Source: Phocaeicola dorei
GTDB taxonomy: Bacteria > Bacteroidota > Bacteroidia > Bacteroidales > Bacteroidaceae
Direction: 5' to 3'
Length of the DNA: 64,000 nucleotides
Assembly (NCBI RefSeq): GCF_013009555.1
Contig: NZ_CP046176.1
Coordinates: forward strand, 5,363,501 to 5,427,500
Numbering within the stretch: the first letter of the stretch is position 1; each line of letters opens with the position of its first letter. Both the position numbers and the translations under genes were made by a program. The notes under the pieces were generated by a model. That model was not told where the DNA came from. It searched no databases and was given only the letters and a program-made list of their open reading frames with translations. This document shows, in pieces, positions 15,696 through 43,712 of this stretch.

Positions 15696-16058
15696 TTATT
15701 TAACCTCCTTTTCTAATAGCTCCTTCAACTGCTTCAGCGCCTCCTTGGATGCAGTAACGCTGTGATTAAATGAAGACACATCCGAAAGAGTCAACTTCTG
15801 TTTAGGAATGTTGATGTAGTAGATGTAGGAGCGATTAATGATTAGACTTTTTCCAATACGAATGAAGATATTGCCCTCGCTACCGAGCTGCGATGAGATC
15901 ATTTTCTCAATCTGGCCCAACTGGTATGACAACATACGAACCTCATTGTCGGTTTGTACAAGCGTAGAGTAGTTACCGTCTGATGCAATATAGACGATTT
16001 TCTCCGGCGCTATATGAACTAAATCAATAGAGGTTGATATGACCAATTGCTTCTTCAT
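15696..16058 (-). CDS. Stand-alone LytTR DNA-binding regulator
   Basis: A 120-aa protein consisting almost entirely of a LytTR domain: DLVHIAPEKIVYIASDGNYSTLV, then LGQIEKMI, then the IFIRIGKSLIINRSYIYYI motif that matches the family's F.RIHRSyivN signature. No receiver domain is present, so the signal may come from a membrane partner; the next gene encodes a membrane protein. LytTR proteins bind two 9-bp direct repeats 21 bp apart, and such repeats occur upstream of this gene and of 14661. Confidence 0.88.
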   Translation of the reverse strand: MKKQLVISTSIDLVHIAPEKIVYIASDGNYSTLVQTDNEVRMLSYQLGQIEKMISSQLGSEGNIFIRIGKSLIINRSYIYYINIPKQKLTLSDVSSFNHSVTASKEALKQLKELLEKEVK

Positions 16059-16157: not shown

Positions 16158-16631
16158 CTATCTAAAATCCCATGATGCAATTCGTCGTGGATCTACCCAA
16201 AGCCCCACTTTATTATTCCTTGCTTTTATTTCTGCATTATGATATTTCTCGGACTGGTCATATTTTGTATAGTGCCATGCCATTCCTGCATTCAACATTT
16301 CAAGAGCGACATCCTTATTCTCTAGAGTATAAACATAAGCGATATATCTACCCCAACCATCTTGTTTTTGGACATCAACAATAATATTATCCCCAAAAAT
16401 AAGGGCTGACAAATAATCCTTGGCTTTTGTCCCAAAAGCCTGTTTCTTTTCTGGAGCATCAATGCCCCAAATCCTAAATTTTATTTGCAAGTTATCTCTG
16501 TTTAGGCCAACAAAAGTGTCACCATCAGAAATTTTTATTACTTTAACTTGAAACTTTTGAGCTAAGCACTCTGTTGTTGACAACAGACAACCTAATAAAA
16601 GAATCCAAATAAGAAATCTTTTCATATTCAT
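16158..16631 (-). CDS. Secreted staphylococcal-nuclease-like protein
   Basis: A 157-aa protein with a signal peptide (cleavage after about residue 25, ECLAQ). Its SNase/thermonuclease domain has the usual landmarks: KISDGDTFVG near the N-terminus, FRIWGIDAPE with Arg and Asp, and GRYIAYVY carrying the second catalytic Arg. The predicted enzyme is a Ca-dependent, nonspecific DNA/RNA nuclease in the periplasm or outside the cell. It follows the protease gene by 61 bp, with a hairpin between them. An extracytoplasmic nuclease beside a motor-like operon is unusual and could attack incoming DNA. Confidence 0.85.
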   Translation of the reverse strand: MNMKRFLIWILLLGCLLSTTECLAQKFQVKVIKISDGDTFVGLNRDNLQIKFRIWGIDAPEKKQAFGTKAKDYLSALIFGDNIIVDVQKQDGWGRYIAYVYTLENKDVALEMLNAGMAWHYTKYDQSEKYHNAEIKARNNKVGLWVDPRRIASWDFR

Positions 16632-16692: not shown

Positions 16693-17469
16693 CTATGGGA
16701 TGTATGATTTTATAAGTTGTATATTCCAGGCATAGTTGAGATTGGCACCAGAATCGTCTATTCCTCCAGATGTTATACCGACAGCCTCTCCTTTTGAATT
16801 TAGCAAAACACCTCCACTGCTTCCGTGATCAATTGGAGCACTAATCTGTAGAATCTTTCCGTTCTCCCTTATCTGTGATATTTCGCCAGATGAAAAAGTG
16901 TTATCCAATCCTCTTGGACTTCCGATAGTATATATTTTTTCTCCTACTTTTGGTGTATTATTTGCGATCTTAATGTAGTTTACTTTTCTGCTAACTCCAA
17001 CCTTGAATATTATAAAGTCGTTGTCTTGACTCTTATGGTAAACTTCCGTTACCTTATATGAGCTTCCATCGGAAAGTATTATGTCTTCATAGCCAACAGC
17101 GGTACCTTGAAAAACATGGTAATTACTTACTGCAATACCGTTACTAGATATGAAGAAGCCAGAACCTTGGAACCCTTGATACCCAGTAGATGTATGAATC
17201 TTAAATACCGCAGATGATAGTTTTTCAAAGATCTCACTTGGAGACAAAACTCTACCATTTGTAGTATTACCGACATCTGAAGTTTTATTTGTCTGAGAAG
17301 TTCCTTTTTGTTGATGTGGTAGTGGTGGGCGACCATTATTAGAGAATGAACCTGGTCGAGAAGATGGACTAGAAACAGGATAGTTATTATTACCCTTAGG
17401 AGCTGCTGGTTTTTGAGCGCAACCTACAGATAACAGTAGTATGAGCAGTATATATAGTATTTGTTTCAT
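16693..17469 (-). CDS. Trypsin-like (S1C/DegP-type) protease lipoprotein
   Basis: A 258-aa protein with a lipoprotein signal (LLLSVGC), then a Ser/Pro/Asn-rich linker of about 60 residues and a chymotrypsin-fold protease domain without PDZ. The catalytic triad is visible: His in AVSNYHVFQG, Asp in SQDNDFIIFKV and Ser in DHGSSGGVLLNS. It is therefore predicted to be an active periplasmic, membrane-tethered protease. The gene lies 3 bp after the second MotB-like gene, firmly within the main operon. It may process or be activated by the motor complex; that is inference. Confidence 0.88.
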   Translation of the reverse strand: MKQILYILLILLLSVGCAQKPAAPKGNNNYPVSSPSSRPGSFSNNGRPPLPHQQKGTSQTNKTSDVGNTTNGRVLSPSEIFEKLSSAVFKIHTSTGYQGFQGSGFFISSNGIAVSNYHVFQGTAVGYEDIILSDGSSYKVTEVYHKSQDNDFIIFKVGVSRKVNYIKIANNTPKVGEKIYTIGSPRGLDNTFSSGEISQIRENGKILQISAPIDHGSSGGVLLNSKGEAVGITSGGIDDSGANLNYAWNIQLIKSYIP

Positions 17470-17472
17470 ATA

Positions 17473-18225
17473 TTATTGGATTTGTCCTGGTTTGGGTAAA
17501 ATATGAATCAAAAATCTTTGATTTGCTTTTTCTTCGAGTTCCCTCATTAGTCCTGTGCCGCTGAGCCTTCCATCTCCACTACCACTGATTAGTACTTCAC
17601 AATTATCTCTATCAAAATGGATATTGTTATTATCCCAAAACTTTTTAAGATTTCTTGCTCGGCGATAACTTAAATCATAGTTATAATCCATTTTATCTAT
17701 TCCATCTTTTGATGCCTGACCTTCAATCACAAGAAGATACTGAACCTCCGGCGTGTTTTCAGCGGCACTATGAATGAATCTTACTAACTCTTGACCAACA
17801 GACAATAATTTTTCTCGCTCAACTTTAGAAATGTTATATATTTGATCATCATCAATTTTAAAACGTACAACAAAATTCAGTTTGTGTTTTTTATTAATTG
17901 AGTCGTATACAAAATAGTTTTGGTCGAGATTTTTGGTAGCATCGTTAATTTCATTTATCTTATCAATATGGGCTTGTGTTGCATTGGCAAGATATCGCAT
18001 ACTATCCAACTCTTCACTATATTGTTTTTGACGAAGTACCATACGAGAGTTGAGGTTCAATAAACTGTCTCTTTCTGCTTTTAATTCTTTCACTTCAAGA
18101 GGTGTCGCATCAATTTGTTTTAACTCAACGATTGATATGATGAACAATACAACCATCAAGAAAAATAAACTAGTCATTAGATCTGCATAACTTGCCCAAA
18201 AGTGCGTTCGTTTATCTTTTCCCAT
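17473..18225 (-). CDS. MotB/ZorB-like stator subunit 2 (OmpA-like domain)
   Basis: A 250-aa protein: a short cytoplasmic start, one TM helix beginning WASYADLMTSLFFLM with Asp15 at the proton-binding position of MotB/ZorB, a coiled coil (residues 40-100), then a C-terminal OmpA/MotB domain (YLLVIEGQASKDG ... LSYRRARNLKKFW ... NQRFLIHILPKPG). With MotA-like partners such subunits form an ion-driven membrane motor. It is a paralogue of the 217-aa protein encoded just upstream, with near-identical C-terminal motifs. Its coiled linker is longer. Confidence 0.88.
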   Translation of the reverse strand: MGKDKRTHFWASYADLMTSLFFLMVVLFIISIVELKQIDATPLEVKELKAERDSLLNLNSRMVLRQKQYSEELDSMRYLANATQAHIDKINEINDATKNLDQNYFVYDSINKKHKLNFVVRFKIDDDQIYNISKVEREKLLSVGQELVRFIHSAAENTPEVQYLLVIEGQASKDGIDKMDYNYDLSYRRARNLKKFWDNNNIHFDRDNCEVLISGSGDGRLSGTGLMRELEEKANQRFLIHILPKPGQIQ

Positions 18226-18228
18226 TTA

Positions 18229-18882
18229 TTAATCACCAATTTTTCCGGGTTTAGGAAGAATATGTATAAGGAATCGCTGGTTAAGTACTTCCTTTGATTC
18301 TCTCATAAGTCCTGTGCCACTTAAACGTCCATCACCACTACCACAAATTAGTACTTCACAATTTTTATCATTAAAATTCAACCCGTTATCTTCCCAAAAT
18401 TTTTTAAGAGATAATGCTCTTTGATAGCTTAACTCGTAATTATAAGCATATCCATCTTTCGATGCTTGTCCTTCAATAATAAGGAGATACTGGATATGAG
18501 GGTTACTTTGTGTCGTTTTAATAATAAAATCTTGTAGGATCTTACCTGTCGTTCTTAAATCTTCTTTTGTACTTGATGGAAGACTATTCATATCTGCACT
18601 TCCACTTCTAAAATTCACAGTTACTGCAAGTTTGTGCTTTTTGAATTCAGGGAAGTATTGGAAGTATTGCGAATGCTGTGTATCGAGTTCTCGAGTTGCA
18701 TTGTTTATCTCATCCGCTTTGTCAATTTTCGCTTGCAGCTCAGCGGTCTGCTCAATCGCATCAATACGAGCATTATTCAATGCTATGATAACAACTATAA
18801 ATAGTGTTAGCATAACAAAGAATAGACTTGTCATAAGGTCTGCGTAACTAGCCCAAAAGAATGATTTGCTTTCCTTTGCCAT
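18229..18882 (-). CDS. MotB/ZorB-like stator subunit 1 (OmpA-like domain)
   Basis: A 217-aa protein with the same plan as its neighbour: FFWASYADLMTSLFFVML with Asp15 in the single TM helix, a short coil, then an OmpA-like peptidoglycan-binding domain ending NQRFLIHILPKPGKIGD. It starts 2 bp after the MotA-like gene and ends 3 bp before its paralogue, so the stoichiometry may involve a MotB heterodimer. Zorya systems have one ZorB; a tandem pair is unusual. Confidence 0.88.
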   Translation of the reverse strand: MAKESKSFFWASYADLMTSLFFVMLTLFIVVIIALNNARIDAIEQTAELQAKIDKADEINNATRELDTQHSQYFQYFPEFKKHKLAVTVNFRSGSADMNSLPSSTKEDLRTTGKILQDFIIKTTQSNPHIQYLLIIEGQASKDGYAYNYELSYQRALSLKKFWEDNGLNFNDKNCEVLICGSGDGRLSGTGLMRESKEVLNQRFLIHILPKPGKIGD

Positions 18883-18884
18883 AT

Positions 18885-20564
18885 CTATTGCTCCTGTGTT
18901 GCACTTTGAGTCGACTCTAAGGAATCTACATTAACAGTTTGGTCATTACTGATATTTGGCTCTACCTGCGTAGATGTTGGAACTATAGTTTGTTGAGGCT
19001 CATTAGAAACGCCAACAACCTCAATCCTTGGTTCTGCAATAAAAGAGTTATATACATATAAGCCAAACGCCATAAAAGCAAGCAAAGTTATAGTTGCAAC
19101 CATATAAGTTATGCTCTTAGGGAATACTGGAGCGGACACATGTTGCACTGCACTTTCGATGGGGAAACCTTCTCTTCTTCCACCATTATTCTGGTTTTTA
19201 AGGCTACTAACCAATCTCTCAAGTATTGCTGTCTGACCCTTCGTTGACTCAACGAGCTGTCCCATAACTGCCTTTATATCGGCAAGATTACGAATCTCTT
19301 TCATCAACTCAGTAGTTTCAGCATTTCTAGCAGCAAACTCTTCTCTTTGCTCTTGAAGCATTCTTGCAAACTCTTCCTTTTGCTCTGAATAATGCTTGAG
19401 CAGTGCATCGAACTCTGAAACAGAGTTGTTACGCAATTGAGTTACGCTTTCTCTTGTACTTTCAGCAAGTTTCTCAAATGTCTTACGCAACGTGTCGTCT
19501 ACTTTTGCAACAACCTCGTTGATATACTGTTCGCGAGCGGCAACCTGATTGATCTCTCTTTCAAAGAATGCACCCATGTTCTCAATGGCGGCTGTTCGAT
19601 TAAGATGCTCATTAATGTTGCTATTCAATTCATTTACGGAATGCAAATATCCTGAGACGCTGTGCAAATACTTATTAAACACAGCTATTTCACCAGTACA
19701 TTCTTTAAGTTCTTTGAGAACTGTAACATTTGCCTGTGCTACGCGTTTAATGTCAATATCCTTGATTAGAGTAATCAACTCTATTTGTTCCCTAGACGAC
19801 TCTTCAACTTTAGACAAGGCACCATCCAAACCCTCAATATTTGATTGGAAAGTTTGATTGAAGGTCATAAGATTTTGCTGTAATAGATACAAAGCATTTA
19901 CTGCATTTCCAGACAGAACAGGTAACAACTCTGTCTGTAACCACGAGTAGAATCTGTTCTTATCAGCTTCTACCTTGGATGTAGCACTTTTAGCCGACCA
20001 AGAAATTAGAGTTGTACAGCAAATACCCACTAAACTTGCGGCCATAGCAATTGCGACACAAGTCATCAATGAGGTGATATTATCCATAAGTGATTCGCTA
20101 GACAAACCTCCACTTACAGCAATAAAACCAATACCGACAATGATACCGACCATTGTGCCCATCAAACCGAGGTATAGCGGTATAGGCTGTTGAATATTGA
20201 TTTCCTCTTCTTCGGCATCGCAATATCGCTCTACTACATCTTTCATTAAATAAAAATCGCTAGCAGCTCCTTTATTTTTTTGAAGGTACATATTTAGAGC
20301 ATTCCTAATCTCCTTAAGCGTATCATTATTTGTATTGATATTTAATTGAGATACGCTTATTGTATCAATATTTTCAACATAGTCATCATCATCGCTACAA
20401 CTCTCTGTCTGAATTTCTTTCTCAACGATAGAGTACGATGATGTACTATTGGGGAATATTGATTTATAGGTCGCTATCTTCTTTTTAGTGTTCCTGTATA
20501 TGTATATCTGTGCAACTATAATTGCTATAATTACAAGAACCACTAGAATATAATGAAGTTCCAT
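18885..20564 (-). CDS. MotA/TolQ/ZorA-like channel protein with long coiled coil
   Basis: A 559-aa protein. There is an N-terminal TM helix (residues 5-22), then a MotA/ExbB core at about 125-195 with LYLGLMGTMVGIIVGIGFIA and a second helix pair ending ISWSAK. About 250 residues of coiled coil (210-460) include a repeated KEEFARMLQEQREEFAA region. A further TM helix (SITYMVATITLLAFMAFGLYVY, near 490) and a Thr/Ser/Gln-rich tail complete it. The intracellular tail is reminiscent of ZorA; the last TM helix is not what I expect of ZorA. Together with the MotB pair it should form an ion-conducting motor. Confidence 0.86.
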   Translation of the reverse strand: MELHYILVVLVIIAIIVAQIYIYRNTKKKIATYKSIFPNSTSSYSIVEKEIQTESCSDDDDYVENIDTISVSQLNINTNNDTLKEIRNALNMYLQKNKGAASDFYLMKDVVERYCDAEEEEINIQQPIPLYLGLMGTMVGIIVGIGFIAVSGGLSSESLMDNITSLMTCVAIAMAASLVGICCTTLISWSAKSATSKVEADKNRFYSWLQTELLPVLSGNAVNALYLLQQNLMTFNQTFQSNIEGLDGALSKVEESSREQIELITLIKDIDIKRVAQANVTVLKELKECTGEIAVFNKYLHSVSGYLHSVNELNSNINEHLNRTAAIENMGAFFEREINQVAAREQYINEVVAKVDDTLRKTFEKLAESTRESVTQLRNNSVSEFDALLKHYSEQKEEFARMLQEQREEFAARNAETTELMKEIRNLADIKAVMGQLVESTKGQTAILERLVSSLKNQNNGGRREGFPIESAVQHVSAPVFPKSITYMVATITLLAFMAFGLYVYNSFIAEPRIEVVGVSNEPQQTIVPTSTQVEPNISNDQTVNVDSLESTQSATQEQ

Positions 20565-20567
20565 TGT

Positions 20568-21563
20568 TTACTTTATTTCAACTGTTATAGGTTTAATGAC
20601 TTTCCACTCTTCTCCGATACGTTCTGCAGTTCCTGTTGTCTTAATGAGTACCTGAGTGGGATCATTTGATGAGCGAGTAACAGAACAAATAGGTTCGAGA
20701 TACTGACTGTCAAATTTTAGGATACGTTGTTTTACTTCCTCTTGCTCAATACATATACTTACCTCGGCTGTATATGCGTTAGCTTCTGACATAGTAAGTC
20801 TATAAATTGACTTTCCTTTTTGATATGTATCTTGAATGCTTGAAAGAATCATTGAATTAGACTCTTTTGCATAAATTTGATATACAGGTTTATCTGTAGT
20901 AGCCGGCTCCATCTTTATATTTTCTGCCACACTTTGAGTAGGAGCTGTTGCTAATGCAATATATTGCTGTAAAATATCCTTAAATTTTTTACTTGCCAAA
21001 TATGCTTCTATAGCTCGATCAATTGTTGCCTGAGACGGGGCACTGGCTTGCGGTCGATAAGACGAACTTTGTCCTCCTGCAATTCTGCGAATCTCATTAC
21101 GGATATAGTCGTTTGTATTGATTTCCTCTGTAATTATGTCTTTTACTCTATTCACATTTGTTCTAGGCCTTTTTCTATATGCAAAAAACGCCAAAACTAC
21201 ACCCAAAATTCCAATAGCAATTCCTATAAAACTAATTGCTTTAGCTTTCGTTATATTATCCTCGATTCCTGAAATTTTTCCACTCAACTCCTTTTTTGTT
21301 TCCTCTGCTTTTGCATTTAATGACTTTTCAACTGCAGTGAATTGTTTTGTTAATGTTGAGTCTGCCTTACTAATCACAGATGCTACAGCATTGTCGATTT
21401 CTTTCTTGGCACGAGCTATTTCCTGGTCAGTATATTGACTAATATTTTCTTGTGCAGTTTGCTGAGCCTTCTTTATGGCCTCATTATCATTTTCACCATT
21501 ATTAGGCAATAATGAGCAACTAGCAAGCGTTATTACTGACAATAAAATTATAATCTTCTTCAT
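20568..21563 (-). CDS. Lipoprotein with coiled coil and internal TM helix (331 aa)
   Basis: MKKIIILLSVITLASC is a lipobox signal. Residues 25-125 are a Lys/Glu/Ala coiled coil. Residues 129-148 form a TM helix (AISFIGIAIGILGVVLAFFAY) followed by KRPR. The last 180 residues include a Ser/Gln linker and a compact strand-rich domain. If the lipobox is used, the coil is periplasmic and the C-terminal domain cytoplasmic, giving a protein that spans the membrane next to the motor. It lies between the Hsp70-like and MotA-like genes with 3-5 bp spacing. The family is not recognised. Confidence 0.72.
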   Translation of the reverse strand: MKKIIILLSVITLASCSLLPNNGENDNEAIKKAQQTAQENISQYTDQEIARAKKEIDNAVASVISKADSTLTKQFTAVEKSLNAKAEETKKELSGKISGIEDNITKAKAISFIGIAIGILGVVLAFFAYRKRPRTNVNRVKDIITEEINTNDYIRNEIRRIAGGQSSSYRPQASAPSQATIDRAIEAYLASKKFKDILQQYIALATAPTQSVAENIKMEPATTDKPVYQIYAKESNSMILSSIQDTYQKGKSIYRLTMSEANAYTAEVSICIEQEEVKQRILKFDSQYLEPICSVTRSSNDPTQVLIKTTGTAERIGEEWKVIKPITVEIK

Positions 21564-21568
21564 TTGTT

Positions 21569-24500
21569 TTACATTTGATAAATGTTACGTACTACAGCGT
21601 TGATAATACCAACTAACGGGTAGAAGAATAATGTTTCTTCCAAATTGTCATCTGCACCATCTTGTGCTATCTCACTCTTCTTGATTGCTAGACCATTCTC
21701 AAGATATGTTCTAATATCTCTATAACATAAGTCCTTGACTTTATTCATAATAGAACGATCTACATCGAAATTGTCATAGAATGAGAATTTCTTATCAAGT
21801 TTGAAGGTAAATTCTATATATTCCTTAATTACGTCTACAACAGAATCCAAATCCGCTTCTGTCACATCATTATAAGTCATGTGTACATCTGCAAATTTCT
21901 CATTATCTGTACCAATAAGGATTGTTTTCATGTCTTTAATTTCCCCATAATCCTGAGATTGGAATGGAGTTAAAATGATACCTCCCTTACAAGTAGACTC
22001 TTTTGAATTTGCAGGACGGATAATATCTAGTCCATCTATTGAATAAGACTGAGCATAGATTTCCTCAAATATGATTTTAGTAAGTCTTACTAGCGTTGCG
22101 TCATTGGTGCTCAAAATGTTAAGCACTTTTGAACCATTACCACTGAAAGTCATATGACGAGGCATATCAAAGCCTTTAGCTTTCATCAATTTTGCAATAT
22201 GATATACTATTGCTACATAGAACAATATTACAACATATTTACCTCTGTTATCATCTGCAAGCATCTTTGCAAAATTGATTTCCACCTTTTCCTTTTTGAT
22301 CTCTTTATTGGATGCCAATGAGAACAAGAACGCAATAACATCAGTTGATACACGTTTATCAAGTACAGACTTCAATACGGCCTTTAGGCCTCTTAAATTG
22401 TTGGTCTCTAACTGATTCGTGATTATATCTTTATACTTATTTACGAAACCGTTTGAATCAGAATCGTATGAGTATCCGTCTCCAAAAATCGTATTAGCGG
22501 CAAAACGGAAAGATGTTAGGTATTTTGGTTCGCCCTTGTCAACTATCAAAACATCTGTAGTACCACCACCTATATCGACAGATACAACAGTAGAGGTTGC
22601 ACCTTTCTTGGCTTTATGATAATAATATGGCGCAACAGATTCTGACGCTGCAATAATATTTGAAATAGGAGCACCAAATAAAGTTGCAAAAGTATTTTCC
22701 CATTCTGCTTTAAATTTATTAAAGCGGTTCTGTGTCATACTTGCAGGATAGAACCATACGATTTCTGTTTTACTTAAATCTCCATTATTAAGAAGTACCT
22801 TTGTTCTTAGCATCAACAAAATACTTTCAATATATTTTGAAGCTCTCTTTTTATCTTCAGTATTTGTTGACCATTTCAAGTCTGTATGTAATACATTGTA
22901 CGGCAATGACAAACTCTTTTCATAAGTATAAGGGATGTTAACATTTGCCATTGCTAAAACAGCCTTATCCCAGTTTGTATTGTTACTCTCAGATATAACC
23001 GTACGCATTGGATATCCATACAAACTCTCTCCGCCAATTGTTGCCGGAATAAAGTCAGAGTTGAACACATCATTGATCATATAGTCATCTGTGATGTGCA
23101 ACTTTTGAATCTGCATATCCTTCTCTGTAATATCAAAAGGATTAGAAGAAGTTGAACCATCAACACTATATTCAATATGCGTATTTGTTGTACCGAAATC
23201 TATAGCAAAACGGAATTTGTGACTTCCATTGCGAGCTGTAAATTTAGGTATAATAACACCATGAATACCACTCTCATTATCATTAGATAAGGTTATATAC
23301 TGATATTCAGACTCTAGTGCATAAGTAATGTAGTCAATGTAACTCGTATCAAATCTTGAATTGTCTGCATTCCTATTTCTTCTAACTACACCTTCAACAG
23401 ACACTTCTTTGTTTGAGTAATCATAGAATGATAACGAATATGCACTGTCTGGATTATCTACTGAATCACGATCTAAGAATGCAACTTTGTAGTATGGTTT
23501 GACACCATCTGCATACTTAATGCTAGGATACAATCCAAGAGTAAACTCTTTCTCAATAATGGCACCCTTGTTGGCGGTTGCCTCAGCCTTACCATCTTTA
23601 TAATAGATTCGTTCATACTGGATATATCCGCCATCTTTTATCGGGATGCGTAATACTACCTTTACAGCCTCACCATTCAAACGAACAACTTCAATACGAT
23701 TTTTTCCACATACTTTTTCCGTAAGATCTTTGGTTGTGAAGTAGTTAAAGTATGTTCTCTTTAACGGAAGTATGTAGCTGAACTTTGAATCTGGATTTTC
23801 ATCATTTCCATTAAAGAAAGCCTCTGAATTAAACTTATAAGGAACCTTAACGATTGTATCTTCTAAGAAGTCTCCAACTGTAACATATGGATACTTTGAA
23901 CCATCATCCGGTAAAGTGCGGTCATCAATAGGTCTTGCGTCGTAATATGGAACATACGTATTCTTATCCCATTTGGCGACAACATAATGTGTGGGCTCTG
24001 TATACATTTCTACTGGCAAAGCAAGAGGCACATTGCCATTTCTAAGCGAATCTGATACTTTCATCTCAAATCCACTCGAAATATTTGTTACTGTGCGTTT
24101 CCTGCGAAGTTTCTCATCAAGTACCATAACATACTGTTGAGCTGTAGGAACAACAGGTATATCATCATAATTGCCTCGATAATATGTTTCGTCAACAATA
24201 TTCTGACGCAATTCATTTCGTTGCTCATCAGTCAGCATTCTGAAACATTTCTCAAGATATAAATCAACCTCGGGGAACACTCTTGCAAAATCTTTTCTGC
24301 TCTTCTTTAGTCCCCACCAATATTTTATATACTCAAAATCCCTTTTGTAAAGAGGTTTATACTCCGTGTCAAATGGGCAATCATTACCGAACTTTATTTT
24401 CTTTCCAACATATTGCAAATCATTCGCAGAAGTAAAGAAAATGGTTGCAGGAGAAGTAGCACCAATGATATTCATTACGCCTGGTGCCGACGGGTCTATA

Positions 24501-24955
24501 TAATTAAGCAGATATATACAATCCATCTGATCAAAATTGTACTCATCACAATCCTGTTCTAGATATGTTTTGTAAGTTTTACCCAAACGAGTGTGCTCTT
24601 CGTAATCAGAATCAGAAAGCTCTGCCAAACAATTCTTCTTATCCCACACGATGATTTCTATCTTATCACGATACTTCTCTATATTGAAGAAAATTTGGCC
24701 AACATCTAGACAGTCAGATACTAGTTTATGGTATGCTGTCTTGCCTTCAAGCGAACCTTCCGCAACAATCTTAAAAGCGCGCTTCACCAAATCCATTCTA
24801 GCGAAAGGAGAAGGAATTGATGTAATTTCATGCTTATCATTTGCACCTATAGGATCTGCGATAGAGTCAATCGCTTTAGTTCCTATCTTTACGGAGGTGT
24901 CCCAATTGCCGATTGTGTCGGCAACTCCTTTATGTAGTCTTAAAACCTTAGCCAT
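21569..24955 (-). CDS. Giant Hsp70/actin-like ATPase (1128 aa)
   Basis: The C-terminal half contains an actin/Hsp70-type ATPase: phosphate-1 motif FAIDFGTTNTH near residue 583, phosphate-2 motif VSVDIGGGTTDVLIVD near 788 and adenosine motif TFSGNGSKVL near 933. The first 570 residues are a unique strand-rich region with no recognised domain, and no canonical Hsp70 substrate-binding domain follows. It is cytoplasmic, with no signal or TM. It is nearly twice the length of DnaK. The gene sits 5 bp after the tubulin-like gene, so two cytoskeletal-fold NTPases are made together. It may polymerise or act as a client-remodelling switch; both are inference. Confidence 0.85.
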   Translation of the reverse strand: MAKVLRLHKGVADTIGNWDTSVKIGTKAIDSIADPIGANDKHEITSIPSPFARMDLVKRAFKIVAEGSLEGKTAYHKLVSDCLDVGQIFFNIEKYRDKIEIIVWDKKNCLAELSDSDYEEHTRLGKTYKTYLEQDCDEYNFDQMDCIYLLNYIDPSAPGVMNIIGATSPATIFFTSANDLQYVGKKIKFGNDCPFDTEYKPLYKRDFEYIKYWWGLKKSRKDFARVFPEVDLYLEKCFRMLTDEQRNELRQNIVDETYYRGNYDDIPVVPTAQQYVMVLDEKLRRKRTVTNISSGFEMKVSDSLRNGNVPLALPVEMYTEPTHYVVAKWDKNTYVPYYDARPIDDRTLPDDGSKYPYVTVGDFLEDTIVKVPYKFNSEAFFNGNDENPDSKFSYILPLKRTYFNYFTTKDLTEKVCGKNRIEVVRLNGEAVKVVLRIPIKDGGYIQYERIYYKDGKAEATANKGAIIEKEFTLGLYPSIKYADGVKPYYKVAFLDRDSVDNPDSAYSLSFYDYSNKEVSVEGVVRRNRNADNSRFDTSYIDYITYALESEYQYITLSNDNESGIHGVIIPKFTARNGSHKFRFAIDFGTTNTHIEYSVDGSTSSNPFDITEKDMQIQKLHITDDYMINDVFNSDFIPATIGGESLYGYPMRTVISESNNTNWDKAVLAMANVNIPYTYEKSLSLPYNVLHTDLKWSTNTEDKKRASKYIESILLMLRTKVLLNNGDLSKTEIVWFYPASMTQNRFNKFKAEWENTFATLFGAPISNIIAASESVAPYYYHKAKKGATSTVVSVDIGGGTTDVLIVDKGEPKYLTSFRFAANTIFGDGYSYDSDSNGFVNKYKDIITNQLETNNLRGLKAVLKSVLDKRVSTDVIAFLFSLASNKEIKKEKVEINFAKMLADDNRGKYVVILFYVAIVYHIAKLMKAKGFDMPRHMTFSGNGSKVLNILSTNDATLVRLTKIIFEEIYAQSYSIDGLDIIRPANSKESTCKGGIILTPFQSQDYGEIKDMKTILIGTDNEKFADVHMTYNDVTEADLDSVVDVIKEYIEFTFKLDKKFSFYDNFDVDRSIMNKVKDLCYRDIRTYLENGLAIKKSEIAQDGADDNLEETLFFYPLVGIINAVVRNIYQM

Positions 24956-24960
24956 ATCAC

Positions 24961-26433
24961 TTAAAACTTATATTTCTTACCAACTAACAATTTTGTAACA
25001 TTGTAAAATAACTCCGTGAACTTATGTGGGAGTGTAAAGTTCTTGGATAGTGATGAGTGCTCTTCATTAAGAGCCGCATCAAATAAATCATATCCTGACT
25101 TATTGAATGCCCATAAAGCTTTAATAGATCCAGGTTTTACACCATCTACAATTGAATACAAGTCAGAAGATTTTACAGAAAGTTTGAATGGCTTAAATGC
25201 TCTATCATTATCAGACATCTCTTCTAGCCACTCAATGTAAGAGTTTACGAATTTCTGAATATTATTAATGAAAGAGGATTTTAAGAACGCATCATCAAAC
25301 TTATTATCTCTTGCCCATTGAAGAGAGGTTGCACCTCTCAAGTGCTCATTCACATACTTAGCAAATAACACAAACTGTGTCATAGGTGTACACAGATAGT
25401 CCCTCGTCGATTGAGTGAGATTGCTGAAAAGAACTTCTTGAACATCCTTTTCAATACCAAACTCCCTAAAATCAGGATTCGGAGCATAAATTTTACCGTT
25501 CGAGTTCTCTTCGCAAACAAGTATTGGATCATCATTCTGAATACTTGCAAAGTCTACAATAGACATTGCTGCTGCTAATTCAACAATATGAGCGTTGTTA
25601 CGTTGCTCTGTTCCTCCTTCTTCATTCTCATATTGCTTAGTTCTTTCATCTCCAATATAATAAAGGACATTCACAGAAGATTCGTCTCCATTTACATTGC
25701 GCTCATAATATTGTAATGCAGCCTTAGTTTTTCCGATAAAGGTAGAAGAATTAATTGTACTTTCCTCATCAGTTTTAACCGCGAAATAAGGGAGCACGGT
25801 AATGGCACCTATCGGGGCATGCTGTATCGCATCGTTATTAGACACCTTAGCATCTAATCCTCTAAGATTCTTCAACAATAGAGGGAATCCACTAGCACCT
25901 GTACCACCAAAAATCGAACTAATGATGAAAATTCTATCTCCAGGCTTGAAGGCATCCGCAAAGTCTATGAAATCTTGAGAATCGGTAAACTGATTGAGTA
26001 CGACACTTCCGATATTAGGATTGCCTTTGAATCCGACTTCCATATCTGACTCTAGATTTGCTTCAGAGAACAACATAGATGCTAATGCTCTATTCTCCTT
26101 AGACATGGTGCTGAATTCAATAAACTCTCTAAACTTCTTATTTTTAGTATCCTTTAAGGCTAGTCTATGATCATTCACAACATTCTCAATAGGAACCTCA
26201 AAGAATCTGTTTTTTGTAGCATCATTAAATGCCAATTGACTACGAATAGCAGTATATGCTTTAATTTGCTCAATAGTTCTCGTAACATCAGCATTTGCAA
26301 AATCAGGGTCTACAATAATTGGAACGATAGCATTTGCTTCAATCTTTACACCTGATGCAGCTAGCATAACCAAAGATTTAATGACACGAGATCCTGTGCC
26401 ACCAATACCGAATATGTATAATTTTCCGTTCAT
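24961..26433 (-). CDS. Tubulin/FtsZ-like GTPase (490 aa)
   Basis: The N-terminus KLYIFGIGGTGSRVIKSLVML is a nucleotide-binding loop, and SSIFGGTGASGFPLLLKNLR near residue 174 matches the tubulin/FtsZ signature GGTG(T/S)G with Ala at the fifth position. It resembles the bacterial tubulin-like (Tubulin_2) proteins rather than cell-division FtsZ. The C-terminal 200 residues are helical and unfamiliar. It is cytoplasmic. It is translated 18 bp after the 4-TM gene and 5 bp before the Hsp70-like gene. The predicted role is a GTP-dependent filament or switch within the motor system. Confidence 0.82.
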   Translation of the reverse strand: MNGKLYIFGIGGTGSRVIKSLVMLAASGVKIEANAIVPIIVDPDFANADVTRTIEQIKAYTAIRSQLAFNDATKNRFFEVPIENVVNDHRLALKDTKNKKFREFIEFSTMSKENRALASMLFSEANLESDMEVGFKGNPNIGSVVLNQFTDSQDFIDFADAFKPGDRIFIISSIFGGTGASGFPLLLKNLRGLDAKVSNNDAIQHAPIGAITVLPYFAVKTDEESTINSSTFIGKTKAALQYYERNVNGDESSVNVLYYIGDERTKQYENEEGGTEQRNNAHIVELAAAMSIVDFASIQNDDPILVCEENSNGKIYAPNPDFREFGIEKDVQEVLFSNLTQSTRDYLCTPMTQFVLFAKYVNEHLRGATSLQWARDNKFDDAFLKSSFINNIQKFVNSYIEWLEEMSDNDRAFKPFKLSVKSSDLYSIVDGVKPGSIKALWAFNKSGYDLFDAALNEEHSSLSKNFTLPHKFTELFYNVTKLLVGKKYKF

Positions 26434-26451
26434 ATAAACATCAATTAAAAG

Positions 26452-26934
26452 TTATAAAAATGGCACATGTTTAGCACTTGAACTCCACCATTTCAACATA
26501 AAACTAAGAAGTACGAATGCAATCATCGCAACGAACATATTGGCAATACCAAAGCCCCAACAATTAGATTCGCCAATCAGTATAGAAATAATATTTCCAT
26601 CAGCGTCTCTTTGATACATTAAGGTATCATGAATGTAACCATTCACGTATTTAGACATCACGATGCCATAACCAACAAATAAAGCTATCACACCATTAAT
26701 ACCTAAAGTTATCAACCAACTCCACCACTTGCAAAGTCTCGGATGGTTAATAATGTAATAGAAAACCACTACTAGAACAAGTGAACAAACTAATGTGATT
26801 AATCCTACCAAGTTATAGATATTTGGATTAGTGTAGGCCTCTGTTCCGGGATCATATCCCCACAAATAATAACTTAAATCTTGTCCATAAAAAGACTGAA
26901 ACCAACAATAAATCTGTCCGAGTAAGTTTTCCAT
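26452..26934 (-). CDS. Four-helix membrane protein (160 aa)
   Basis: After an aromatic N-terminus, four TM helices are evident: NLVGLITLVCSLVLVVVFYYII, WSWLITLGINGVIALFVGYGIV, a third near residue 128 (GIANMFVAMIAFVLL) and a possible fourth at the end (FMLKWW). Between them a short loop contains charged residues. No family is recognised. It sits 1 bp after the vWA lipoprotein and 18 bp before the tubulin-like gene. It may anchor the tubulin-like protein to the membrane (inference). Confidence 0.75.
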   Translation of the reverse strand: MENLLGQIYCWFQSFYGQDLSYYLWGYDPGTEAYTNPNIYNLVGLITLVCSLVLVVVFYYIINHPRLCKWWSWLITLGINGVIALFVGYGIVMSKYVNGYIHDTLMYQRDADGNIISILIGESNCWGFGIANMFVAMIAFVLLSFMLKWWSSSAKHVPFL

Positions 26935-26935
26935 A

Positions 26936-28225
26936 TTATTTAATATTAATTGTTATACTTCCATATTGTCCATCATATGCATACGCATCATATACACCGC
27001 CAAGTAGATAACTCAAACCATATGTTTTTTCCATTGCACCTGGTGCGTTGATATCCAATCCGCTCTCATCAGTACAGTCATTAATCCATTGGGGCAAGGT
27101 GTTTTTAAGTGATATTTTGACAACTCCCTTGCTTAATACGGGTTGCACCAAGTTGAGTTTGATGGTGTGCGTATACAAATCTTGTCTAGGACCTGAATAT
27201 TTAACGATTTCAACACCATATGCTTTATTTGATACCATATAATTGTCGGGGTTCATCAAATACTCATCAGGAAGTAGAATATTAGAGAAATTAACGGATA
27301 TCCCCACCTGAAAACGACTATTGCCACCTCTGCCGTCAGTCTTTGCGTTGTTAATCGCATATTGCTCAGATCTTGCAATTTCATATTTGCCATTACCTGG
27401 CTGAGGCAATGAAATATTGTACGGTATAGCCGTTAAAGGCCTAGAAATCATAAAAATATTCTGTACCCCTTTGCCTTTGATTTGATTAAGTTCCACCTTT
27501 TTGAGAATAGTATTAAGGTAACTTCTGTCACCCATCAACCACATAAAGAAGGGACGGTCATTGTTAATAGGCTGTTTATCATCGAATTTATTGTAATATG
27601 TGCCATTAAACTGAGATGTTAAACGCATAACTACAATTGAGAAATTAGGGTTTTTGGCAAGTTTTTCGACGATATGACTCTTTATGCCAATTTGCTGAGC
27701 TACAATATATTCATCCGCATTATCTTTAGCCTTGTATTTTTTTCCAGGTGAGAAAATACAATCCGAAACAAGAATAGAGACTTCATTATCGTCTGTTTGT
27801 GATATGACAGTATCAAGGATATTAGACATATCAGAAGTGCCTCTTTTTCCACCTTTCATTTTAAAATCGGCAGGTTCCAAGGCCTCAATAAACTCTCTAA
27901 CATCTGGCTTTTGCTGTAGAACTTCACTATTTATATAATTAAGAATCAAAGTATTCTTAGCAGCTAACGAATCTGTTCGAACACCTAAATCTGCATGCTG
28001 GATATCTGATAAGTAACTATAAACAGCATTTTCAAAGTCTGTTGCGCCCTTAACGTAACCATCCATACTACCAGAATTTTCAACAAATACTTTGATTGTT
28101 GGTGCCGGTAAATTCACTTCAGTCTGTGGACTTTCATTTCCCAACTTTTGGTTAGGTCCAGCGGGAGGACCTCCACAACTAGCTAAACTTAGGGCACAAG
28201 CCGCAGATAAAATCAAGCGCTTCAT
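26936..28225 (-). CDS. von Willebrand A-like lipoprotein (429 aa)
   Basis: MKRLILSAACALSLASC is a lipoprotein signal. The domain then begins IKVFVENSGSMDGYVKG, a vWA MIDAS loop in which the usual first Asp of DxSxS is replaced by Glu. A SILVSDCIFSPG segment near residue 150 fits the fourth strand and third MIDAS loop. The C-terminal 180 residues are strand-rich. It is the first gene of the operon, 30 bp from the invertible segment. vWA domains bind protein partners through a metal, so a sensor or adaptor on the outer face is plausible. Confidence 0.8.
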   Translation of the reverse strand: MKRLILSAACALSLASCGGPPAGPNQKLGNESPQTEVNLPAPTIKVFVENSGSMDGYVKGATDFENAVYSYLSDIQHADLGVRTDSLAAKNTLILNYINSEVLQQKPDVREFIEALEPADFKMKGGKRGTSDMSNILDTVISQTDDNEVSILVSDCIFSPGKKYKAKDNADEYIVAQQIGIKSHIVEKLAKNPNFSIVVMRLTSQFNGTYYNKFDDKQPINNDRPFFMWLMGDRSYLNTILKKVELNQIKGKGVQNIFMISRPLTAIPYNISLPQPGNGKYEIARSEQYAINNAKTDGRGGNSRFQVGISVNFSNILLPDEYLMNPDNYMVSNKAYGVEIVKYSGPRQDLYTHTIKLNLVQPVLSKGVVKISLKNTLPQWINDCTDESGLDINAPGAMEKTYGLSYLLGGVYDAYAYDGQYGSITINIK

Positions 28226-28255: not shown

Positions 28256-28560
28256 TAGTTCCACGAAAGAACTATAATTGCAATGTAAGACCTTGATTAA
28301 AAATGTAATGCAAAATAAATAACTGACATTTTCATAACATTTTTAATCATAGCCTACTGATTTATAAAAATTTACAAGCTATACAAACATTCATCTTTTA
28401 TCTTTATAAAATAACAAAATTTTCATAATTCGTTGAATATAAATTTATTTGGTGTCATCATTTAATTTTTTGAAGAAGAAAAAATAATCGCCTGTTTCTA
28501 CCTTTCCTTGAACAATTTTTAGTAATTTTGCAAACGGAGTATAGTTCTTTCGTGGAACTA
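28256..28560. repeat. Invertible segment: 21-bp perfect inverted repeats around 263 bp
   Basis: The repeats lie at 28256-28276 and 28540-28560 and are exact reverse complements. Each contains the partly symmetric core AGTTCCACGAAAGAACT. The right copy includes the stop codon of the adjacent tyrosine recombinase. The 263 bp between is AT-rich and contains no gene but holds an exact Bacteroides -7 box at 28523-28530. The arrangement matches known phase-variable promoters of Bacteroides. As written, the promoter points right, away from the cargo operon. Confidence 0.85.
28523..28530 (+). promoter_or_regulatory. -7 box of the invertible promoter (OFF orientation)
   Basis: TAATTTTG matches TAnnTTTG exactly; the -33 region is weak. 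It is the only exact match on either strand inside the segment that I found. After inversion it would lie on the minus strand at about 28286-28293, giving a leader of about 54 nt to the vWA gene. Confidence 0.65.
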
Positions 28561-29754
28561 CTCCAATAAAGACCTGATAAGTCCTTGATTGGCATCATCT
28601 ATCACCGAGTTTTCCAACATTGTTAGATAAATCTGCGTTGTCTGTTCCGAGGTATGTCCCATACCAGCACTGATGACAGAAATGGGAACATTATGATTTC
28701 TCGCAGCGGTAGCCCAACTGTGGCGAGAAGTGTATGATGTCAATTTGCAACCGGCAGGCAACATCTTTGATAATCGTCTCAACTGTCTATTATGGTTGTT
28801 GATTGCGACTTGATACTCTTCGTATGCCTCCTTTGTGTCCGTAGAAGTCAAAATAGGGAAAACATAAGGCGATAATGCCGATGAATATCTGTCAATTATA
28901 CGCTGGATACTTGGTTCTATACGCACACTCAATAATTGTCCCGTTTTGCGACGGGCATAACATATCACTCCGTTTTGAATGTTTTCTTTCTTCAAATAGG
29001 CAATATCTACGAATGCCATTCCACGGGTACAATAGCTGAAAATAAATATATCCCTTGCAAGTGCAAGAGGAGTATCTTCTGTTAATTTCAGTTTATATAA
29101 CTGCGATATTACAGACTCTGAAACAGCACGCTTGCGGGTACGATCTATACCAGTATAAACCTCTGTAAACGGATGTGATTGTTCAACAAACTTGTGTCTA
29201 ACTGCCTTGTTGTAAACGGCACGCATTATACGCATATAGAATGAAATAGAGTTCCTAACCATCCCTCGCTGCACAAGGAAGGCATTGTAGTCCGCAATAA
29301 GTTGTTCCGTCATTGCCGAAAACGGCAAGTTGACTCCACCAAGAAACTCGGCGAAGTTTTTCATCGTTTTCTCATAGTTCAGGGCTGTACCCAAACGATT
29401 GGCATTACGCATCAACCGTATCTGATTCTTCATAAAGTCCAATACAGACACATGACATTCTGGAGACTTGTAGCGTTTGATAATATCTCCAACCGAATAG
29501 GTTACTCCGCTATTATCCAAGTCTTTGACAATTCGTTTCAATAGTGCAATATCACTATCTATACGATTCTGAATAATGCTCTTGTCTGCAACACTTACAA
29601 CAACCTGTTCACCTATTGCATCCCATTCGTCAGGCTGCAATCGGATATTGGTTGTTATCTGTTGTGTCGCTCTACGATGAGTCACTTGATAATATACAGT
29701 TCCTGCACGCCCTGCGACTGATGATGGACGTAGTTTTACTTTAATTGTTGCCAT
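28558..29754 (-). CDS. Tyrosine site-specific recombinase (probable invertase)
   Basis: A 398-aa protein: an N-terminal arm-binding-like domain, a core-binding SAM-like domain (about 100-190) and a catalytic domain with Arg in SYCTRGMAF, Lys in RRKTGQ, HxxR in YTSRHSWAT, His in GMGHTSEQ and Tyr in TTQIYLTML. The start MATIKVKLRPSS is preferred over an upstream ATG at 29781. Its 3' end forms part of the right inverted repeat, as in Bacteroidales DNA invertases linked to switchable promoters. It could instead be an integrase of an acquired island. Confidence 0.9.
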   Translation of the reverse strand: MATIKVKLRPSSVAGRAGTVYYQVTHRRATQQITTNIRLQPDEWDAIGEQVVVSVADKSIIQNRIDSDIALLKRIVKDLDNSGVTYSVGDIIKRYKSPECHVSVLDFMKNQIRLMRNANRLGTALNYEKTMKNFAEFLGGVNLPFSAMTEQLIADYNAFLVQRGMVRNSISFYMRIMRAVYNKAVRHKFVEQSHPFTEVYTGIDRTRKRAVSESVISQLYKLKLTEDTPLALARDIFIFSYCTRGMAFVDIAYLKKENIQNGVICYARRKTGQLLSVRIEPSIQRIIDRYSSALSPYVFPILTSTDTKEAYEEYQVAINNHNRQLRRLSKMLPAGCKLTSYTSRHSWATAARNHNVPISVISAGMGHTSEQTTQIYLTMLENSVIDDANQGLIRSLLE

Positions 29755-29783
29755 AATGTGATTTGGTTTAAGATGATACAATA

Positions 29784-37639: not shown

Positions 37640-39451
37640 TCAGTCTATCTTTCCGTCATGTATCTTCTTATGACAACTCCTGCACACTGCAATCGTCTTG
37701 CGTTTGCGGGCAATCATGTGTCGTTCCCAGCTTTCCTTTCCCTGCAAGTTCTTTAGCTTCCTTACATGGTGCATAACAAGGTCGTCTGTCGCTCCACATA
37801 GTTCACACTCACGGGCTTTCAGCCTTTCAACAAGACTTGTCCGTCCCGCAGTATAAATTGTTCGTGGCATAGTGTCACATTCCGATTTATAGGTGGGTTT
37901 CTTTCGTTTGAAGCCACCATCGTAAAAGAATCTTTCCTTTACACCTGTTTTAGTCATGTGTTTTATGATAAACCTACCGTTCTTACGATATTTTTTGTTT
38001 ACCTCACGTGTACGGCATTTATATTTGCCTGCAAACGTTTTGTACATGCTGTATTCCATGATGTACTTGAAATTATTCAAGGCATGGGCGCAGTTGTTGG
38101 CTATGGAGTAATAGTTATAGAAACCCACGATTTCTCGATTATAACTATCAAGGATTTCAAGGTCATCATTGAATATCAGTCCCGATTTACATTTCGGTTT
38201 CCATATTTCCTTTCCGTTACGGTTTGTCAGTTCTAAGACTCCCAAATTGAAAAGTTTTTTACGGACAGTTTCCATACTGACATTTAAGCAGACCCTTTTA
38301 CCATAGGTTCTTCTTAATCTACCCCGTTTATCCCTTTTTTGGTCGTTGGACTTTCTTACAGTGATTTCATATCCGAGAAATTTGGCTGGTCTTTCCGTGT
38401 GAGTGACAAGTGTCTTTTCATCGGACAGCTCCAATGCCAGTTTATCAGCAAGGAAGTTTTTAATATCTTCCTTTATCTGTTGTGCATCTTGCTTGCTTCC
38501 GATAATTCCCACAAGAAAATCATCTGCATATCTTGCATATTTCATTCTTCTGTAATCGGCGTCCATTTCTTCGCCGTTGGGATATTTAGCCCGTCCTTTT
38601 TCTATTGCTTTCAGTTCAAGGATTAGCTTTGTCCTTTGCCTTTCATCTTTTACGGATTTCAATTTTCGCACAATACGTTTTCTTGCATTGCCAAAGTCCA
38701 TACTTTCTCTACTGAATCTTCGTTTCTTCCCTTTGTCGAATTTGGCTATGTATTCCTTTATATACTTATCCAGCTTGTCAAGGTATATATTAGCCAATAT
38801 CGGGCTGATGATACCCCCTTGCGGTGTGCCACTGTAAGTATTGTGGAATTGCCACTCCTCGACATATCCAGCTTTCAAAAACTTGCGTATCAGTCGGATG
38901 AATCGTTCATCCGCAATGCGCTCCGAGAGAATGTTTATCAATACATCATGGTTTATATTGTCAAAGAAGCCTTTTATATCTCCCTCTACAAACCATTTTG
39001 CACCGCTAAACTCCTTTTGGATATGAGTTAATGCAGTATGGCAGCTTCGATTGGGACGAAACCCATGCGAGGTATATTCAAAACTTCCCTCGTATATGGC
39101 TTCCAATACCATTCTTACCACTTCCTGTATCAACTTGTCATTGAAAGTCGGCACGCCAAGAGGTCTTTTCTTACCGTTTTTCTTCGGTATGTACACTCTC
39201 TTTGACGGTTGGGGTTGATACGTTTCGTCTTTTAACGTATCAATCAACTTTTCAATTCGTTTCAGGCTCATGTTGTCAATGGTCTGACCGTCCGAACCTT
39301 TAGTCATGTTACCTTCTTTAGCGTAAATACGCTGATAGGCAACATAGAACATTTCCTCATTGAACAAAATTCTGTAAAGACGTTCAAACTTATAGCTTGC
39401 ATCCTTACTGTGTTCTGATAGACTGTTTAATACTCTTTCTGGACTTCTCAT
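37640..39451 (-). CDS. ltrA: Group II intron reverse transcriptase/maturase 1
   Basis: A 603-aa intron-encoded protein. The RT domain shows GTPQGGIISPILANIYLD and ARYADDFLVGI (catalytic Asp pair), followed by the maturase domain X and a C-terminal HNH endonuclease (CELCGATDDLVMHHVRKL ... AVCRSCHKKIH). RT, splicing and DNA-cleavage functions all appear intact, so the intron may be mobile. A GTG at 39463 is four codons upstream; the ATG at 39451 is preferred. Confidence 0.92.
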   Translation of the reverse strand: MRSPERVLNSLSEHSKDASYKFERLYRILFNEEMFYVAYQRIYAKEGNMTKGSDGQTIDNMSLKRIEKLIDTLKDETYQPQPSKRVYIPKKNGKKRPLGVPTFNDKLIQEVVRMVLEAIYEGSFEYTSHGFRPNRSCHTALTHIQKEFSGAKWFVEGDIKGFFDNINHDVLINILSERIADERFIRLIRKFLKAGYVEEWQFHNTYSGTPQGGIISPILANIYLDKLDKYIKEYIAKFDKGKKRRFSRESMDFGNARKRIVRKLKSVKDERQRTKLILELKAIEKGRAKYPNGEEMDADYRRMKYARYADDFLVGIIGSKQDAQQIKEDIKNFLADKLALELSDEKTLVTHTERPAKFLGYEITVRKSNDQKRDKRGRLRRTYGKRVCLNVSMETVRKKLFNLGVLELTNRNGKEIWKPKCKSGLIFNDDLEILDSYNREIVGFYNYYSIANNCAHALNNFKYIMEYSMYKTFAGKYKCRTREVNKKYRKNGRFIIKHMTKTGVKERFFYDGGFKRKKPTYKSECDTMPRTIYTAGRTSLVERLKARECELCGATDDLVMHHVRKLKNLQGKESWERHMIARKRKTIAVCRSCHKKIHDGKID

Positions 39452-40023
39452 AATGTCTCTCACATTTTCCGTTAATTGTATTAATAATTAGCTGCTTCCC
39501 TTCGCCATGTACAAGGCGTTACCTTGCTCAAACTACTATGGAAGCTCCGTTACCACTCCGAATTTTCATAGGTCGAACCTAATAGCCTTTCGGCACTTCG
39601 GGATAGGTAATCCCCGTTTATCACATCGTAACTGTTGGCATGATAGATTGTCGGATACGACTTCCGTCCTTTACTCGCTTACTGCGGTTGTGTCGTGATA
39701 AGTTCTTGCTACATTCATACCTATTCACTGAAGTAGTATCACGATATGGCGGTTGATAGTTACCTTACGCCATAGCCTCAAGGGGGACCACTCAGACTAT
39801 CGTTCAATCAATTCGGACTTTATCCTCATATCTATCTTTTCATCTCGCCATTCAGTCGCAGTTTGGTAACTAACTGACTTATGACTTTTCCGACATGCTA
39901 CACTCCCTGCTCGGTTAAGTTTTCCCGAAACAGATAAGTCGGCTGATGATAGGTTATTTTCAAAGAACACGTTCCTAATCTCTTGCCAAAGAGATATTTA
40001 CGATGCAATCTTTACGGGCGCAC

Positions 40024-43097: not shown

Positions 43098-43712
43098 ATG
43101 CAAAGAACTGTGGAACATAAAGTTAAGGCAAAGATAACCTACGCAAGATATGGCGAGGTGTTTTTTGTGTCTACATTCCATCAATTTGATGTGGAATATG
43201 TAACCAAACTCCTTGCTCAATTTGAGAAAGAGGGTTTGATTACACGAATAGCCAAAGGCGTATATGTTAAGGCAAAAAAAACACGATTTGGAGTGGTATA
43301 TCCTTCTGCTTTTGAACTGGTAACGGAGATTGCCAAGAGAGATAAGGCTATAGTATTTCCAACAGGTGAAACCGCTGCTAATAGATTGGGATTTTCCACA
43401 CAAGTCCCAATGAATGCTTGTTTCATAACATCAGGAACTCCAAGAACTCTGAAATTGGGCAATAGAACTGTAACATTAAAACATGGCGTTCCAAGAAATT
43501 TTGCATACAAAGGAAAACTAATGCCCGAATTGGTACAGGCTCTTCGTAGCATTGGAGAGGATAATATAACAGAGAGCGTGGAAAAAAGAGTTGCTCAACT
43601 ATTATCTGCAACACCTGAAACAGAAACAATTGAACACGATCTATTATTGGCACCGGTATGGGTAAGACAAATTATAAAAAGAAACCTCAAAACGGATACT
43701 GACAATGAGTAA
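43098..43712 (+). CDS. abiEi: AbiEi-family antitoxin (DUF6088-like)
   Basis: A 204-aa protein with an N-terminal winged-helix-like region (VEYVTKLLAQFEKEGLITRIAKGVYVK) and a C-terminal domain with PSAFELVTEIAKRD and ITSGTPRTLKLG, as in AbiEi/DUF6088 proteins. In type IV systems the antitoxin does not bind the toxin directly and represses the operon. It overlaps the toxin gene by 8 bp. It lies between tra operons, where it may stabilise the element. Confidence 0.82.
   Translation: MQRTVEHKVKAKITYARYGEVFFVSTFHQFDVEYVTKLLAQFEKEGLITRIAKGVYVKAKKTRFGVVYPSAFELVTEIAKRDKAIVFPTGETAANRLGFSTQVPMNACFITSGTPRTLKLGNRTVTLKHGVPRNFAYKGKLMPELVQALRSIGEDNITESVEKRVAQLLSATPETETIEHDLLLAPVWVRQIIKRNLKTDTDNE

Follow-up and report, generated by a model that had tools for sequence, protein, structure and literature searches.

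What would a MotA/MotB-type motor, a tubulin-like protein and an actin/Hsp70-like protein do together in one operon? This question is raised by nine genes of Phocaeicola dorei (assembly GCF_013009555.1, contig NZ_CP046176.1, forward strand positions 5,363,501–5,427,500; this stretch of 64,000 nt is called the window, and all positions are window coordinates). A sequence-only reading of this DNA had proposed, as a working idea, that the nine closely spaced genes encode an envelope machine for defence or conflict, of a kind not known to it. The ORF coordinates bear out the layout, as the nine ORFs lie on the minus strand from 28225 to 16693 with intergenic gaps of 1–18 bp. They are labelled A to I in transcription order (Table 1).

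Table 1. Features in and around the operon (window coordinates).
Feature	Position	Strand	Basis or remarks
LytTR regulator gene	15696–16058		
Secreted SNase-type nuclease gene	16158–16631		Pfam 1.1e-23
I, trypsin-like protease, 258 aa, lipoprotein-type signal	16693–17469	-	Trypsin_2 2.2e-23
H, second MotB/ZorB-like protein, 250 aa, Asp15	17473–18225	-	PADLOC, alignment
G, MotB/ZorB-like protein, 217 aa, channel Asp15	18229–18882	-	PADLOC, alignment
F, MotA/ZorA-like protein, 559 aa, long helical tail, C-terminal TM	18885–20564	-	PADLOC, structural comparison
E, lipoprotein, 331 aa, predicted coiled coil, one internal TM	20568–21563	-	lipobox and hydropathy; coiled coil from the sequence-only reading
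D, 1128 aa, actin/MreB/Hsp70-fold ATPase domain at about 578–1007	21569–24955	-	structure models
C, FtsZ/tubulin-fold GTPase-like protein, 490 aa	24961–26433	-	structure models, Tubulin_2 comparison
B, small membrane protein, 160 aa, 3–4 TM	26452–26934	-	TM prediction
A, vWA-like lipoprotein, 429 aa	26936–28225	-	lipobox, ENSGS motif, D155
Invertible segment, 305 bp	28256–28560		inverted repeats 28256–28276 and 28540–28560, 21 nt, 100% identical
TAATTTTG, promoter-like -7-type box	28523–28530	+	starts 38 nt from repeat edge; points away from operon
Tyrosine recombinase gene	28558–29781	-	Pfam Phage_int_SAM_5 3.6e-19, Phage_integrase 3.2e-8
Group II intron-type reverse transcriptase/maturase gene	37640–39463		amid transfer genes
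AbiEii-type nucleotidyltransferase gene	43705–44763		4.9e-31

Products of the nine genes

From signals and TM positions, C and D are predicted to be cytoplasmic. B, E, F, G and H would be embedded in the inner membrane or span it, and A and I would be located beyond it. The assignment of A as a vWA protein is made at motif level, from the vWA-type ENSGS motif and a conserved Asp (D155, invariant across 28 aligned rows); profile searches gave no match. The trypsin-like nature of I agrees with its clear domain match, and residues H118 and S218 are invariant across 8 aligned rows.

Structure models support the folds that had been suggested for the two NTPase-like proteins, i.e. an FtsZ/tubulin-type fold for C and an actin/MreB/Hsp70-type fold for residues 578–1007 of D, which in the model are followed by about 120 mostly helical residues. 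C itself scores 18.2 bits against Pfam Tubulin_2 (cut-off 27), and 10 of the 11 members of its family match this profile (best E 2.4e-7). A Pfam HSP70 search with D gave no match; in Hsp70 chaperones the ATPase domain is followed by one that binds substrate.

The motor proteins F and G resemble ZorA and ZorB, their nearest solved relatives, as had been proposed. The channel aspartate is kept: in an alignment with 8qyd chain F, D15 of G falls on residue 26, and H carries the equivalent Asp15. PADLOC matches of the motor proteins are to Zorya models, and the kinship is remote. In Zorya, envelope damage caused by the phage has been suggested to let ZorB bind peptidoglycan and so open the channel (PMC11890865). 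As far as the accessible part of that paper describes it, Zorya shares with the operon an ion-driven A5B2-type motor, a long MotA tail, an OmpA-like MotB domain and the position of the channel aspartate. The operon differs in having no ZorC/D/E-type match and in encoding tubulin- and actin-fold NTPases, a vWA-like lipoprotein and a protease instead, and in the window clade the tail of MotA bears an additional C-terminal TM.

The OmpA domains of the MotB-type proteins in the window score below the Pfam cut-off, and that of a relative (L049) reaches 1.2e-16. OmpA-type peptidoglycan binding is marked by the motif GHTD. Since this position reads GQAS in the window MotB, peptidoglycan binding by this protein appears doubtful.

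Membership of the operon in Zorya was rejected, as the channel aspartate is present but the family cut-offs are missed by far (NCBIfam ZorB1 35.6 of 400 bits, ZorA 22.9 of 100 bits) and no Zorya effector (ZorC/ZorD, ZorE or other) was found among the PADLOC matches of the nine proteins and the neighbouring SNase at E ≤ 0.5. A Zorya subtype, with the same motor and new effectors, would account for the nearest solved relatives and for the PADLOC matches; given these scores, the lack of any match of the nine proteins to a ZorC–G model at E ≤ 0.5, and the occurrence of the core genes without a motor (see below), we consider it most improbable.

An invertible segment upstream of the operon

The sequence-only reading had overlooked an invertible promoter, in a segment between the recombinase gene and gene A. 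In locus L001, which is 96.7% identical to the window over 12.4 kb, this segment is inverted (93–94% identity) and its flanks are unturned. The segment contains a TAnnTTTG box, which we take to be the Bacteroides -7-type consensus; no good candidate for a -33 element was seen with it.

An inverted-repeat scan was made of the 500 bp upstream of A (in L031, of the gene replacing A) in 29 loci, with start codons set partly by eye and with L027, L029, L044, L049, L082 and L091 left out. Perfect inverted repeats of 16–21 nt were found in four of the 29, namely the window, L001, L003 and L031. In the other 25 loci the repeats are at most 11 nt long, with nominal p values of 0.01–0.015 for L022 and L042. 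Recombinase homologues lie solely beside the same four loci. In all four, the box starts 38 nt from a repeat edge; in resampled sequences it occurs at 36–40 nt in 0.4–1.0%. Its direction is towards the operon in L001 and away from it in L003, L031 and the window as sequenced. The window and L001 are not independent, which leaves three independent inverton cases. The 21-nt repeat has one additional match in the genome, with 3 mismatches.

Repeats, recombinase and two orientations, the marks of an invertible promoter, are all present, the orientations coming from two different genomes. On this sequence evidence, phase variation of the operon is very likely in these four loci. The adjacent recombinase is probably the invertase of the switch; alternatively, it could be the integrase of an element. 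Inverted repeats, an adjoining tyrosine recombinase and a promoter-like box inside the segment are also described, in the accessible text, for Bacteroidales invertons (e.g. PMC8748976), from which the present segment differs in controlling a motor/cytoskeletal-NTPase operon. Among the papers listed by a literature search on invertons, none with an inverton governing such an operon was found.

A conserved core and exchangeable modules

Relatives are patchily distributed. With few first-look candidates scored per genome, so that copies may have been missed, C matches were found in 12 of 100 relatives, and D matches in 8 of 61 genomes of the genus, 13 of 295 of the order and 10 of 395 of the phylum (own genome included in each count). 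In a database search, 7993 candidates were scored, of which 1692 proteins had E ≤ 0.001.

Gene content was compared between loci by iterated profiles. The loci had been gathered by homology to C or D, and the co-occurrence figures are conditional on that. Left out of the counts were the near-copies L001 and L082, L002 (short contig), L028 and L030 (D unrecognised), and the contig-edge D matches G190, G688 and G095:C251. D directly follows C in all 33 loci with D. A was recognised in 29 of the 33 (unrecognised in L027, L029, L031, and L091, where the contig begins too late) and B in 26, with a TM-rich frame in the B position in L026, L044 and L088. F and G occur together in 20 of 32 loci and 12 are motor-less; the contig of L087 stops 37 bp after D, leaving its motor status undefined and the denominator at 32, and L091 (5.2 kb) was scored as motor-less. 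The protease I was recognised in 13 of 33 loci, and the second MotB (H), among the loci compared, solely in the window and in L001, its near-copy.

The core keeps its gene order in divergent loci. Over the 20 motor loci, the identity matrices of A, C, D, F and G are correlated with each other (Pearson 0.81–0.95). In the remote relative L025, A and B are fused into one protein (vWA part 4.7e-21, TM part 5e-10, with profiles made without L025).

On a D tree, in which long branches and uneven composition were flagged, the motor label must change 8 times, and well-supported branches force 6 of these changes; with L087 and L091 set to unknown, 6 changes suffice. The label is weakly clustered, as 30 of 500 shuffles gave as few as 8 changes. 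Copies from the genus of the window do not form a single clade (AU p 1.5e-6). The vWA–TM–tubulin–actin genes form a core to which the motor is joined as a swappable module, and the family moves horizontally. Motor-less loci that were searched for domains encode proteins with SH3, WG-repeat, Big_2, TPR or zinc-ribbon domains, in L029 an AAA-type ATPase, and in L025 a ParA-like/DO-GTPase1-like protein (see below). Proteases of differing kinds recur among these motor-less relatives, e.g. a retropepsin-like aspartyl protease (L084:8511–9041) and a zinc-ribbon PrsW protease (L026:18696–19793).

The core is also present on three contigs listed as viral in IMG/VR (L080, L081 and L082, the latter two also with the motor), which may be virus or mis-called host DNA. 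In L019 (1160–2095) and L022 (721–2391), putative ADP-ribosylglycohydrolases, recognised by eye, are encoded directly after the protease gene.

Predicted relatives and proposed function

No description of a MotA/MotB-type motor coupled to both NTPase folds was found in the open-licence literature, and to this extent the novelty claimed for the system stands. There is, however, precedent in kind from 2010 and 2020. Operons of tubulin-like (FtsZl1, Tubulin_2), vWA and OmpA proteins were predicted by Makarova and Koonin (PMC2875224) and resemble the present operon, as far as described there, in combining FtsZ-like and OmpA-family proteins (here the MotB-type OmpA domains) with a vWA protein (here a candidate, by motif) in one membrane-linked operon. 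They differ in that the main text mentions neither 'Hsp70' nor 'MotA', that no DNA switch is described in its accessible part, and that C scores under the Tubulin_2 cut-off.

Secondly, Kaur et al. (PMC7159879) predicted 'GTPase-centric' (DO-GTPase/GAP1) conflict systems with tubulin, HSP70 and vWA components, for which the accessible text names SH3, zinc-ribbon and DO-GTPase features, and tubulin and HSP70 as non-overlapping themes of GAP1-N2 systems. These too are predicted to be membrane-near, with a tubulin fold and vWA, HSP70 in other neighbourhoods, variable modules and mobile neighbourhoods; C and D correspond to the tubulin and HSP70 components at the level of fold. Differences are that the text contains no 'MotA', that those systems were described mainly from other phyla, and that DO-GTPase and GAP1 are absent from the window operon (no Pfam match in the nine proteins, and no P-loop pattern either). 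The operon core has predicted relatives; the new points are the coupling of motor, tubulin and actin folds, and the inverton.

The role predicted for FtsZl1–vWA–OmpA operons, the nearest published prediction, is membrane remodelling (PMC2875224). The present operon might correspondingly be an envelope-remodelling or export machine with no conflict role, in which the motor sets a structure of the periplasm or outer membrane in motion, C and D organise the inner membrane and the switch varies a surface trait. Several components have signals or TM helices, and invertons of gut bacteria are often near surface genes (PMC11892184, accessible text). Patchy distribution, horizontal movement and the exchange of motor and protease modules are unlike a housekeeping envelope function, and we consider this explanation rather unlikely.

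The best reading is that the operon is akin to the predicted tubulin/HSP70/vWA conflict systems and to the FtsZl1–vWA–OmpA operons, with a Zorya-like motor added. We propose a phase-variable, envelope-spanning conflict machine, most likely directed against phages, and put the chances of this proposal at about even. Defence is favoured because of the patchiness, transfer, modularity, switch, ZorAB kinship and link to predicted conflict systems. Further support for a conflict role comes from the conserved core order, the correlated identity matrices, the A–B fusion, the conjugative-element genes surrounding the operon, and a ParA-like/DO-GTPase1-like protein in L025 (7.2e-5, below the cut-off), DO-GTPase1 being a mark of the systems in the accessible text of PMC7159879. 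On the other hand, the absence of a toxin or nuclease among the nine genes counts against defence, as do the altered MotB motif and the lack of a clear defence island (PADLOC on 83 flanking ORFs, matches to 14 models, without a control set). The conflict reading is also weakened because phase variation suits surface traits as well, 12 of 32 loci are motor-less, the inverton is found in four loci only and the motor label is weakly clustered. Of the original reading, the parts and the co-occurrence are borne out; the assignment to defence or conflict stays an inference.

For such a conflict machine, we infer that A to I would form a transmembrane, ion-powered device that is ON in only part of the population. 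An envelope disturbance might be sensed at the vWA/protease/MotB side, upon which ion flow would turn or strain the MotA ring. By analogy with Zorya (PMC11890865, accessible text), the MotA tail could then drive assembly or release of C and D, whose output may be a containment polymer, membrane damage or growth arrest. The device would be Zorya-like up to the motor, with the cytoskeletal-fold NTPases taking the place of the Zorya nucleases, and motor-less relatives would use other membrane proteins on the same core. A stronger version, a switchable immune system and categorically new machine in which an ion-driven rotary motor is coupled directly to both cytoskeletal NTPase folds and, by way of a coiled-coil tail, passes torque or a conformational signal to a tubulin-fold GTPase paired with an actin-fold ATPase, is possible but rather unlikely. 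If true, one operon unites three classic folds by which prokaryotes generate force (MotAB motor, tubulin and actin), and Zorya-type motors reach beyond nuclease recruitment. It would also provide a genetic handle on tubulin/vWA/HSP70 systems predicted since 2010, no tests of which were found, and gut Bacteroidales would control their machine by a DNA switch, allowing ON-locked and OFF-locked comparison.

One further possible role relates to the surroundings. To the right of the operon are genes for TraQ, TraO, DUF4138 and TraM, as well as genes for TraG, a relaxase, an AbiEii-type protein and an intron-type reverse transcriptase. An accessory of a conjugative element, aiding DNA transfer or excluding other elements at the envelope, would fit these Tra, TraG and relaxase genes. 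A recombinase homologue is nearby in four loci only, however, with most relatives lacking one, and the system is present in loci for which no transfer genes were seen in about 4 kb of flank (flanks domain-searched by PADLOC only). We consider such a role very unlikely.

To the left are genes for an N6-methylase/helicase and an LPD29 protein. The SNase-type gene lies 61 bp beyond the protease gene and is not intact in L001, where the stretch corresponding to the LytTR gene has stops; similarity between the window and L001 ends near 15880.
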